From Sandaracinus amylolyticus (GTDB lineage Bacteria; Myxococcota_A; Polyangia; Polyangiales; Sandaracinaceae), in the NCBI RefSeq assembly GCF_021631985.1, contig NZ_CP070225.1, positions 4,154,001 through 4,218,000 of the forward strand: a stretch of DNA of 64,000 nucleotides, written 5' to 3'. Below, in pieces: positions 28,401 to 31,642 of the stretch (position 1 is its first letter; each line of letters starts with the position of its first letter). Under the pieces are notes generated by a model that did not search any database, was not told where the DNA came from, and saw only the letters and a list, made by a program, of their open reading frames with translations. The translations under genes and the position numbers were made by a program.

Positions 28401-29532
28401 GGCGCGCACCCAGGTGCCGGAGAGCGCGGAGATGCGGCAGTCGCTCGGCATGTTCGAGCTCGGCCGCAACCGCCTGCCCGAGGCGATCCGCGAGCTGCGC
28501 CGCGCGCTCGAGCTCGACGCGCAGCTGCCCGGCGCGAGCTTCGGGCTCGGCGTCGCGCTGCGTCGCTCGAACCGTCTCGACGATGCCGCCGAGGTGTTCG
28601 AGCGGCTCGCGCAGATCGATCCCGGCCATCCCGGCCTCGCGCTCGAGCGCGGCCTGCTCTACGAGGCGCGCGGCGAGTCGGATCGCGCGGTGCGCTTCTA
28701 CGCGGACGCGCTCGCGGAGTCGCCCGACGATCCCGAGCTGCTGCTGCGCCTCGGCGCGGCGCAGGTCGCGGCCGGGCAGATCGACGCCGCGGAGGACTCG
28801 CTCACGCGCGCCCAGCGGCTCACGCCGAGCTCGGCCGAGGTCGAGCACTTCCTCGGCCGCGTCGCGTTCTCGCGCCACAACCTGCCGACCGCGAGCCAGC
28901 ACTTCGAGCGCGCGATCGGGCTCGACGCGACCCGCGGCGAGTTCCACCTCTACGCCGGCTGGGCCGCGCTCGAGGAAGGTCAGATCGGCCGCGCGCGCGA
29001 GCGCGTGCAGGAGGCCATCCGCCGCGATCCCACGCTCGGCGACGCGTACTGGATCCGCGGCGCGGTCAGCCTGCGCACCGGCGCGGTGCGCGACGCGCTC
29101 GTCGACCTGCAGCGCGCGATCGAGCTGCGCCCCGAGCGCACCGAGGCGATCGCGCTGATGGGCGAGTGCTACGACCAGGTGCGCCAGCTCCCGCAGGCGA
29201 TCGCGGCGTACGAGCGTGCAGTCGCCGCGCGCGACACCCAGGGCGAGTGGTGGTACCGGCTCGGACGGCTGCGCCTCGACGCAGGCCAGCGTGGCGAGGC
29301 GGCGCGGGCGCTCGCGAGGGCGACGTTGCTCGGCGAGGCGACGACGCCGCAGCCCGGGTGGCTCGCCGACGCACATCGACTGCAGGGCGACGCGCAGCGG
29401 CTCGGCGGCGAGCGCGCGGGCGCGATCGAGCACTACCGTCGTTACCTCGAGATCGCGCCGGCGAGCGCGATCGACCGCAGCGAGGTGCGCGACGCGATGA
29501 TGGATCTCGGAGCGGTCCCGCCGGGCGAGTGA
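25447..29532 (+). CDS. zinc-ribbon / Pro-Ala-rich / TPR membrane protein (1361 aa)
   Basis: The N-terminus is an MJ0042-type zinc ribbon (Cys6, Cys9, Cys29, Cys32). Residues 45-530 are a low-complexity linker that repeats the short motif DLDLPAPR/LELPMP more than 20 times, spaced by Ala-Pro-Lys stretches. One membrane helix lies at about 540-563 (AILIGLMVLIVGAGAALGL). The C-terminal 780 residues are mostly TPR helices (for example LPEAIRELRRALELDAQLPGA). In myxobacteria, proteins of this layout occur in gliding-motility and social machinery, with the ribbon and linker in the cytosol and TPRs outside; this role is inferred. GAGGAA precedes the chosen ATG. A similar giant lies at 38118. Confidence 0.85.
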   Translation: MIKVACLSCAAPYDLDERRLPASGLKMRCPKCGTTFQVFPDGRVAEAAAAAPKKTQVGVAPPPAPAPAPAAARPAPAKPATPLDDLDLDLPAPAAPKRAPIAVGPTPPQPAAPAKRAPIPMGPTPPQPAAPAKRAPIAMGPTPQPAPAPQARAPLAPAFDASADLDLPAPRGAVKPAPLGLDGDLDLDLPAPRAAAKPAPAKPAAPAKPAPAALDDFDLPAPRSAAKRAAPPDDGFDLDLPAPRAAKPTPGGEVDLPTPRAATPRKPLAPAFEPARPADGLELDLPAPRGASRGIGLELDLPAPRAAAAPAPQAPRGPALADASRTPFDDDLDLPAIRPEAELPAPKGSFDLELDLPATREPAGRPALAAADDAFGDLDLPMPGGRSAPPAGAGALSFGDLDLPAPRDGGVDLPTPATHRAELPALRVDADLPIPRAGHSDLPLPGADSSFGDLELPTPNAPAGRASLPPGDELELPMPAPRASRGHGELDLGGGGDDEMEFADIPQASPGGGSAPMAVAPVARPSTARARDKSATPPKRGRTAAILIGLMVLIVGAGAALGLTPLGPFGIFALEPFLPGSGDPAVVARVITDADALVAHDVRSDSWRALQQLGVARRDAGLSRELLARSLLHESLYQIRFGADAGGAARAAAIHERLTQREADDPRAALALAADQLRSGNPSGVVARIATARQHAPTDPFVDIVEGEAALADGRPADAATAFRAALDHGGGAAAQWGLARALTSGEDQAAIDAAIEATLAASPMHAGARVTKARRLWENASDEAGALALARQVAGMEPVDGQTLRASSADRADALVLLGRIHERRGRIHQALQSYEAARETDGRRVEAALGAGRMLLEQSPSEALARFEAVLGVEGAVEVIVQPSGRSAQHEAQLGAARAKLSVGRVEEARGNLEALAAQRPEDPEVFLWLGRAEQQLQHPEAAEQQFREAIRLGPSVFESYLALARLYVDVDRGGDALAVLEQARTQVPESAEMRQSLGMFELGRNRLPEAIRELRRALELDAQLPGASFGLGVALRRSNRLDDAAEVFERLAQIDPGHPGLALERGLLYEARGESDRAVRFYADALAESPDDPELLLRLGAAQVAAGQIDAAEDSLTRAQRLTPSSAEVEHFLGRVAFSRHNLPTASQHFERAIGLDATRGEFHLYAGWAALEEGQIGRARERVQEAIRRDPTLGDAYWIRGAVSLRTGAVRDALVDLQRAIELRPERTEAIALMGECYDQVRQLPQAIAAYERAVAARDTQGEWWYRLGRLRLDAGQRGEAARALARATLLGEATTPQPGWLADAHRLQGDAQRLGGERAGAIEHYRRYLEIAPASAIDRSEVRDAMMDLGAVPPGE

Positions 29533-29726
29533 AGGACGCGCCACGGACCGGTCATCGATGGTCCGTGGAACGCTGGGGACGGGACGACGAGCACACGCGG
29601 ACGTTCGACGTGAATCGGGTGCGCGCCGTCGCCCCGCCGCCGTCGAGCGCGCCGCCTCCCGAGGGGCCGAGGAAGATCGTGGAGATCGATGCGTCGCGGG
29701 GGCGGCGCGATCCGCGAAGGGAGTAG
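29529..29726 (+). CDS. small coupled ORF, 65 aa, unknown
   Basis: A GTG at 29529 shares its TG with the TGA of the TPR gene (GTGA overlap), the same coupling seen at five other junctions here. The product is basic and polar, with a Pro-rich centre (APPPSSAPPPEGPRKIVEI) and no membrane helix or Cys. It ends 9 nt before the inverted-repeat element. It could equally be read-through noise; codon-position GC and conservation were not measured. Confidence 0.4.
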   Translation: MKDAPRTGHRWSVERWGRDDEHTRTFDVNRVRAVAPPPSSAPPPEGPRKIVEIDASRGRRDPRRE

Positions 29727-29885
29727 CGCGGGGGCACGGCCGAGCACGCGCAGGCGGCACGCGGGACGAGCACGAGGGACGCGCACGAGCACGAGCACGG
29801 TGCGCGACGGTCCCGGGAAGCTCGCGAGCCCGCGTGGTCGACGCTGCGACGCAGCGAGAACCCGTCGGATCGGGCTCGCGCGCGT

Positions 29886-29924
29886 GAATTTCGACCTCGA
29901 TCGCTTGGAGATCGATCGAAATTC
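29886..29924. other. AT-rich stem-loop inside the 531-bp element
   Basis: GAATTTCGA and TCGAAATTC form a perfect 9-bp stem. After a CC bulge, TCGATC pairs with GATCGA, leaving GCTTGGA as loop. Its low GC stands out in this genome. Confidence 0.65.
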
Positions 29925-29991
29925 GTGTCGGCGCGCGTGATCTCGACGCGAGAATCCGTCGTTTCACCGAGCCATTCGGCACGTTTTCGAA

Positions 29992-30011
29992 TTGGGGTCG
30001 CCCAACCCCAA
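29992..30011. other. short stem-loop TTGGGGT/ACCCCAA
   Basis: A 7-bp perfect stem with a 6-nt loop (CGCCCA) sits immediately before the first unit of the 22-bp array. Confidence 0.5.
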
Positions 30012-30014
30012 CCG

Positions 30015-30156
30015 ATGGCCCCGATCGAGCCATCGCATGGCCCCGATCGAGCCATCGCATGGCCCCGATCGAGCCATCGCATGGCTCCGATCGAGCCATC
30101 GCATGGCTCCGACCGAGCCATCGCATGGCCCCGACCGAGCCATCCGATGGCTCCGC
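30015..30156. repeat. 22-bp tandem repeat, six full units plus a partial
   Basis: Units begin at 30015, 30037, 30059, 30081, 30103 and 30125, with a partial unit at 30147. Each reads ATGGC-YCCGAYCGA-GCCATCGC, where Y marks the only common changes; units 1-3 are identical. ATGGC and GCCAT are inverted both within and between units, so the array is a ladder of short palindromes phased by two helical turns. The unit length is not a multiple of three, which rules out a conserved coding repeat. Confidence 0.85.
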
Positions 30157-30265
30157 GGTGACCTCGCGAGCCGCTCGCGACCTCGAGCCACGGCGTCCGA
30201 GCGTGCTCCTGCTCGTGCTCGTCCCGCGTGCCTCGTCCCGCGTGCCGCCTGCGCGTGCTCGGCCG

Positions 30266-31642
30266 TCAGCGGATCTCCGCGCGCTTCCGGAGCCGCAACG
30301 CCTCCCGTCGCGCCTCCTCCCGCACCGCTCCCTCTTCCAACGTCCTCAGCGCCCCGCCGCGCACCACCGCGCGCCCGTCGATCAGCACGTCGGTCACGTC
30401 GCTCGCGGTCGCCGAGTACACGAGCCTCGCCACCGGATCGCCGCCCGCTGCGCCGTCCTCGTAGGGCTCTCCCGTCGGCAGCGGCTCGCAGTGCAGCCCG
30501 TCGAGCCGCACCACCGCGACATCCGCCTTCTTCCCGATCTCGATCGAGCCGACCTGCCCGTCGATCCCCAGCGCCTTCGCGCCGTCGATCGTCAGCATCG
30601 CGAGCGCGTCGATCGGCGCCAGCGCCGCCGCGTCCTCGCGCCTCACCTTCGCGAGCAGCGCCGCCTGACGCAGCTCGGTGAACGGATCCATGCGGTTGTT
30701 GCAGGGCGCTCCGTCCGCGCCGATCCCCACCACGAGCCCGGCCTCGCGCATCGCGACCACGTCCGCGATGCCGCTCGCGAGCTTCAGGTTCGCGCTCGGA
30801 CAGTGCGCGATGCGCGTCCCCCGCTCCGCCATGCGCTTCATCTGCGCGCGCCCGAGCTGCACGCCGTGCGCGAGGATCACGTCGGGCCCCGCGATGCCCC
30901 ACCCCGCGAGCACGTCGACGTCGTCCTTGCCGAGGATCTTGCGGACCTCGTCGCGCTCGCCCTTGTGCTCGCTCGCGTGGGAGTGGATGCGCGCGCCCTT
31001 GTCGCGCGCGAGCGTCGCGGTCTCGCGCAGCAGGCCCTCGCTGCACGAGAGGATGAAGCGCGGACCGAACGCGTAGCCGAGCCGTCCGCTCTCCGCGCCG
31101 TGCCACTTCGCGGCGAGGCGCTCGCTCTCGCGGAGGCTCTCGCGCGTCGTCTCGCGCAGGCCCTTCGGCACGCCCTGGCCGCGATCCATCATCGCCTTGC
31201 CGGAGAAGCCGCGCATCCCCGACTCGGCCATCGCCTCGAACACCACGTCCTCGTGGTGCACCGTGCCGATGTCGAGGATCGTCGTGGTGCCCGCGCGCAT
31301 CATCTCCGCGAGGCCCAGCCGCGCGCTCGCACGCAGCGAGGCCTCGTCGTGGGCGGCCTCGAGCGGCCAGATGCGGCGCCGCAGCCAGTCCATCAGCGGC
31401 AGGTCGTCGGCCATGCCGCGGAAGAGCGCCTGACAGAGGTGCACGTGCGCCTGCACGAAGCCGGGCACCACCACGCATCCGTCGGCGTCGACCACGCGCG
31501 CGGCCGTCCCGATGCGCCCTCGTGGCTCGATCGCGACGATGCGATCGCCGCGCACGAGCACGTCGGCGCGCAGCACGCGGCGCTCGGGATCCATCGTGAT
31601 CACCGTGCCGCCGCGGATGATCACGTCGATGTCGAGGCTCAC
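30266..31642 (-). CDS. amidohydrolase, adenosine/5'-deoxyadenosine deaminase-like
   Basis: A protein of 458 residues in the ATZ/TRZ/MTA-SAH deaminase group. The metal ligands H66 and H68 are seen in GFVQAHVHLCQ, then HSHASEHKGE, LAHGVQL, and GIGADGAPCNNRMDPF near residue 305. The last is characteristic of 5'-deoxyadenosine/S-adenosylhomocysteine deaminases. The C-terminal composite beta-domain (GSIEIGKKADVAVV) is intact. Together with the PNP and cytidine deaminase genes it points to nucleoside salvage. The exact purine substrate, or guanine as an alternative, is not settled by sequence. The GTG start overlaps the upstream stop (GTGA). Confidence 0.85.
   Translation of the reverse strand: MSLDIDVIIRGGTVITMDPERRVLRADVLVRGDRIVAIEPRGRIGTAARVVDADGCVVVPGFVQAHVHLCQALFRGMADDLPLMDWLRRRIWPLEAAHDEASLRASARLGLAEMMRAGTTTILDIGTVHHEDVVFEAMAESGMRGFSGKAMMDRGQGVPKGLRETTRESLRESERLAAKWHGAESGRLGYAFGPRFILSCSEGLLRETATLARDKGARIHSHASEHKGERDEVRKILGKDDVDVLAGWGIAGPDVILAHGVQLGRAQMKRMAERGTRIAHCPSANLKLASGIADVVAMREAGLVVGIGADGAPCNNRMDPFTELRQAALLAKVRREDAAALAPIDALAMLTIDGAKALGIDGQVGSIEIGKKADVAVVRLDGLHCEPLPTGEPYEDGAAGGDPVARLVYSATASDVTDVLIDGRAVVRGGALRTLEEGAVREEARREALRLRKRAEIR

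Follow-up and report, generated by a model that had tools for sequence, protein, structure and literature searches.

In mycobacteriophages of Cluster A, one repressor binds the operators at promoters as well as many non-promoter sites known as stoperators, which are single asymmetric 13-bp phage-repressor sites lying mostly in one orientation, and distances between repressors change in step with their site motifs (PMC6550527). This operator/stoperator system appears to be the closest described parallel to a locus that we analyzed in Sandaracinus amylolyticus. The two are alike in that sites are found at promoters and at dispersed non-promoter places, and the joint divergence of consensus and specificity between related phage genomes may have a counterpart here, but the Sandaracinus sites form tandem 22-bp palindromic arrays on a bacterial chromosome, involve several paralogs in parallel, and are putative binding sites. 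Our literature search found no paper on such arrays in Sandaracinus. Plasmid replicons offer a further comparison through their iterons, direct repeats of ~19-22 bp that are phased to the helix and lie beside the gene of the binding protein. Similarly, the Sandaracinus arrays are helix-phased direct repeats beside the gene of a presumed binding protein, but they are chromosomal, fall into many classes and have no Rep homology. An iteron or plasmid-type origin finds no direct support at the locus: no replication initiator is adjacent, its neighbors encode a TPR protein and an amidohydrolase, and the gene-linked copies precede an uncharacterised family.

The window, i.e., the whole analyzed stretch of 64,000 nucleotides, corresponds to G000:C1:4154001-4218000, where G000 is this genome and G001 a sister genome of the same genus. 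Genes were called with a simple codon-usage caller run on fetched genome stretches, and the genome-scan counts are minimum values, since scoring covered a portion of the candidates. Between the TPR protein gene, which ends at 29532, and the amidohydrolase gene, arranged tail-to-tail, we found the following features:

29565-29726, plus strand: putative 53-codon gene between the TPR gene and the left arm, with a GTG start and a TAG stop at 29724-29726
29736-29800, plus strand: left arm, one instance of a ~64-bp repeat that is dispersed in the genome (ACGGCCGAGCACGCGCAGGYGGCACG...), set 9 nt beyond the TAG of the 53-codon frame
29886-29924, no strand: AT-rich stem-loop, of which only the right half (TTCGATCGAAATTCG) is retained in the sister
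29912-29989, minus strand: conserved promoter-like core (GAAAACGTGCCGAATGGCTCGGTGAAACGACGGATTCTCGCG on the minus strand), pointing left, away from the array
29990-30013, no strand: promoter-proximal palindrome, AATTGGGGT-CGCCCA-ACCCCAACC
30015-30155, minus strand: array of 6.4 units of 22 bp (CATGCGATGGCTCGATCGGAGC on the minus strand), with inverted half-sites in every unit
30202-30266, minus strand: right arm, a second copy of the repeat, starting on the final A of the amidohydrolase stop codon (TGA)

The individual structures named in the original prediction were recovered. The ends at 29736-29770 and 30232-30266 are reverse complements at 35 of 35 positions, with weaker pairing (90%) over 30 further bases that brings the arms to ~65 bp in total; the 7-bp stem-loop at 29992-30011 reads TTGGGGT-N6-ACCCCAA; the AT-rich stem-loop is present; and the 22-bp direct repeats match at 94%. 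Their reading as one 531-bp element did not survive, as the locus is a composite of unrelated arms and interior: by itself the interior matches G000:5482699-5482877, a place without arms, and a single unit was ruled out by L010, the best interior match elsewhere, which carries none. Likewise, the element does occupy the gap between convergent genes as proposed, but the gap is not bare of coding potential, since the 53-codon frame adjoins the left arm. A chance local rearrangement, which had been named as the outcome that would undo the prediction, does not account for the locus because each of the three parts has further occurrences in the genome and the sister retains the junction with its arms. 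The inverted arms surround a minus-strand orphan copy of a module consisting of a period-22 array, a palindrome and a promoter-like core.

Comparison with the orthologous junction in the sister revealed that both arms, a ~100-bp core and a period 21/22 array are kept while the unit sequences differ; the long AT-rich stem is not conserved, because the sister keeps only its right half. A covariance model of the core detected three more loci in the sister, and a second model found more in both genomes, giving ~5 module loci per genome, several of them at positions common to both species. All follow one common plan of core, palindrome and array, with the core orientation taken from the gene-linked copies. 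The palindrome occurs as TTGGGGT-N6-ACCCCAA in some loci and as GAACGGTC-N6-GACCGTTC in others, and across six loci 7 of its 9 pairs were altered on both sides, so that symmetry was kept while the sequence changed; no other register pairs as well, and the covariation score was reached by none of 500 shuffles.

Two module loci lie directly 5' of paralogous small genes (MATKRKKTTKK... and MATRKKASKSNKK...). Profile searches identified 8 genes of this family in the S. amylolyticus genome and 7 in the sister, and none in 17 other relatives searched; a broader profile, applied order-wide, showed that some genomes of other families carry between one and three copies, and the inspected order-wide relatives had no upstream period-22 array of three or more copies. 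The family protein combines a lysine-rich tail (MATKK...) with a helical domain, and in its predicted structure the tail is disordered and leads into helices, among them one that is 57 residues long (mean pLDDT 80). Searches of Pfam, NCBIfam, PDB sequences and Foldseek returned nothing convincing for the helical domain and no significant PDB relative, and no recognisable DNA-binding fold was seen; contact with nucleic acid is suggested by the lysine-rich tail alone. Such a lysine-rich, low-complexity tail is shared with bacterial histone H1-like proteins (HC2 and the Rv3852 family), but the matches to these are isolated, weak and confined to single members, and none of the models searched is related to the helical domain.

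We next compared the regions upstream of the family genes with those of unbiased control genes, counting arrays with a period of 20-24, at least three copies and a distance of at most 350 bp from the gene. Arrays preceded 10 of 15 family genes (in one of the ten, L133, a 21-bp match beside the palindromes rather than at them) and 2 of 641 controls (Fisher P = 5e-17). The units are 22 bp in classes A, D, F (sister), G and H, whereas class B has palindromes spaced 22 bp apart, class C has ~32-bp units (2 of the 15 genes), and no array was detected upstream of class E (one of the 15). Most paralogs' arrays differ in sequence, each forming a class of its own. In the sense of the family genes, the order is array, palindrome, core and start codon. 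In the class B core, TAGGAT stands 15 nt downstream of CTTGAGAAA, an arrangement that resembles a promoter. The regions 5' of the family are enriched for a related motif, GAAAAACGCGCGATCTCG (P = 8e-6); it is not clear in the window core, and no consensus sigma-70 promoter was found in the window element. The unbiased sample of this genome also contained different intergenic tandem arrays with 41-43-bp units (L154:5085-5242, L155:13951-14238, L172:8500-8718 and L173:19837-19999).

Pooling all gene arrays of one genome as the query, we found that six classes of the S. amylolyticus genome have partner arrays without a family gene:

Class A orphan: the window array, minus strand
Class B orphans: 2846672 and 1318704
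Class C orphan: 9963876
Class D orphan: 9659751
Class G orphan: 6876708
Class H orphans: 1171097 and 7677101

By local-alignment score every orphan of this genome has a clear best class, class B being the weakest, while the sister orphan L100 is not clear-cut between A and H. The window array is assigned to class A, the class of the gene at G000:5482960, by its match to G000:5482692-5482837 in front of that gene. Hence the same type of site is present, class by class, at family-gene promoters and at remote loci, with the adjacent gene as the assumed regulator. Profile searches behind the inspected orphans detected no degraded family gene. Several orphans aim into the 3' end of a converging gene, and those at 6876708 and 7677101 aim at a downstream gene. 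The arrays at L194 and L197 are inverted relative to the gene-linked array of their class, which suggests that the arrays act as orientation-independent DNA sites. We also observed further arrays of period 22-23 beside post-stop arms and outside the gene classes in G001 (L068 3765-4260 and L070 5130-5203), possibly orphans of lost paralogs. In addition, the sister gene preceding family gene G adjoins, in the S. amylolyticus genome, a class-C orphan array instead of gene G (L203 and L142), suggesting that family genes were gained or lost beside arrays. Separately, G001 has an insertion between tsaD and the class-A array (L097:2685-4468) that comprises a gene for an AAA ATPase together with a small partner gene; the pair resembles defence-type ATPase pairs and is missing from the window's genome.

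Alignment z-scores against dinucleotide shuffles showed that the window array and the gene A array of the same genome, 1.3 Mb apart, are closely alike (score 67, z = 13.3), as are the sister orphan and the sister gene A array (score 50, z = 9.8) and the window array and the sister orphan (score 40, z = 9.9). Across species, the gene A arrays scored only 22 (z = 2.1), and the cross pairs of orphan and gene A had z = 3.1 and 1.0. The two class-A arrays within a genome are therefore more alike than the orthologous gene A arrays, and the arrays appear to co-vary within each genome. Classes H and G of this genome behave alike, whereas arrays of classes C and D are conserved between species. Array similarity also followed protein identity (rho = 0.93, n = 7 pairs, of which pair G is possibly non-orthologous), but synonymous identity moved the same way, and because of this locus-wide confounding the correlation was not used as support.

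Likeness within a genome can arise from a shared, drifting binder or from copying between arrays. The latter underlies the strongest competing explanation, a minisatellite devoid of binding function, in which modules were copied from family-gene promoters into other intergenic sites and the arrays of a genome are kept alike by occasional gene conversion. Slippage can expand GC-rich tandem arrays, the match between the window array and the gene A array is no higher than ~73%, and whole cores are common to the gene copies. Yet intergenic arrays of this period are rare (an unbiased 800-kb sample of the genome contained two with period 21 but none with period 22) and are nevertheless concentrated on one gene family across divergent paralogs, and the palindromic symmetry outlasts sequence change. 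Moreover, the aligned units of the window and gene A arrays share a 10-bp block, CATGCGATGG, without a mismatch, whereas 8 of the other 12 positions differ, a contiguity expected with a probability of ~0.02 by counting arrangements. The contiguous box and the preserved symmetry favor a shared binder over copying, neither being decisive, and we regard the minisatellite explanation as improbable though deserving of weight.

On balance, we consider it somewhat probable that the locus is an orphan, operator-like class-A array, a putative site for its cognate protein, flanked by two unrelated post-stop repeats. The arrays are putative operators, with the cognate family protein as the most likely binder. 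Of the proposals in the original prediction, a protein-binding locus with iteron-like phasing thus seems to fit best, while the suggested link to replication or partition found no direct support. Each array would comprise DNA operators bound by dimers; every dimer would occupy a single 22-bp unit, which spans about two helical turns, and the 22-bp spacing would place neighboring sites on one face of the helix. The cognate family protein as binder is the less certain step; it would regulate its own promoter through the gene-linked array and act also at a few orphan arrays. At the tail-to-tail junction of the window, the orphan could be a remote operator, a titration site or a roadblock, which would stop read-through and a short minus-strand transcript. 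A common trans-acting factor would keep same-class arrays alike within a genome, while classes and species drift apart.

Together, the classes suggest a series of protein-DNA recognition codes, each private to its class, that drift in concert. More tentatively, and with some doubt, we propose up to eight parallel and mutually insulated protein-DNA address systems, in which lysine-tailed paralogs would use private, mostly period-22 array codes at their own gene and, for most, at one or more remote arrays, with potentially fast drift between species and matching within a genome. If the arrays are bound by cognate paralogs, a single bacterium would provide a natural series of transcription factor-site pairs undergoing divergence, and the orphan sites would permit direct tests of specificity co-evolution after duplication and of crosstalk avoidance. 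The arrays would also offer a first handle on an uncharacterised protein family that is present in some parts of the order, with an expansion in Sandaracinus.

The original prediction had also considered a structured non-coding RNA; a related option is that hairpins of the locus serve the convergent genes as a terminator in both directions or as an insulator. The interior folds far more stably than shuffled sequences on both strands (z = -6 and -7.6), the modules of the window, L125 and L127 lie between convergent genes, and the arms would pair in a read-through transcript. Any palindrome array would fold so, however. In the gene-linked copies the array is 5' of the promoter-like core and thus outside the transcript, unit sequence and in places orientation vary, the element has no Rfam family at gathering score (sub-threshold chance matches only), and no hairpin followed by a T-run, as in an intrinsic terminator, occurs in it. 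We judge an RNA or terminator role to be unlikely.

The arms belong to a repeat whose consensus, derived from aligned copies, is ACGGCCGAGCACGCGCAGGTGGCACGTGGACGAGCACGCGGGACGAGCACGTGCACGAGCACGG. A genome search with the whole element returned 53 matches, nearly all of them arms, and further copies of the arm, for which the original prediction had proposed a search, were found at many loci in both genomes; the repeat matched 27 times here and 37 times in the sister (E ≤ 0.001). The copies are often single and lie in sense-strand orientation behind stop codons: 22 of 40 in the two genomes start within 40 nt past a same-strand stop codon, compared with 8% expected for random intergenic positions (binomial P = 3e-14, based on our own gene calls). 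Given this enrichment, the inverted arms of the window are two members of a dispersed post-stop repeat family. Each follows one of the convergent genes, and they face each other because the flanking genes converge. Judging by flanking sequence, some copies are seemingly at orthologous gene ends in both species (L012/L073, L019/L067, L022/L075 and window/L069). Outside the genus there were weak matches, and many of these are short and fall on CACGAGCACG-type repeats. The arms resemble REP/BIME-type repeats in being dispersed, short, intergenic, near stop codons and often facing each other between convergent genes, but the 64-bp unit on its own does not form a strong hairpin (fold z between +0.8 and -1.6); the repeat presumably also lacks the REP consensus.

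The predicted MITE-like, IS-derived or other mobile element bounded by the 35-bp ends, which the perfect terminal inverted repeats and non-coding interior had made plausible, is very improbable, as the arms are chiefly single and post-stop and do not delimit one jointly moving unit; where arms are paired, the interiors are unrelated, range from 30 to 1300 bp and in some cases contain genes; and presence is not variable, the orthologous sister junction having arms, core and array at a conserved position.

Paired arms were also seen between tandem genes at L014, L015 and L016, where they lie 30-45 bp apart and could form hairpins with ~60-bp stems; these pairs are possible terminators. Finally, the 53-codon frame at 29565-29726, which has no Pfam match, may be a real small gene, because the sister has retained its stop and the two indels that separate the species are multiples of three and preserve the frame.
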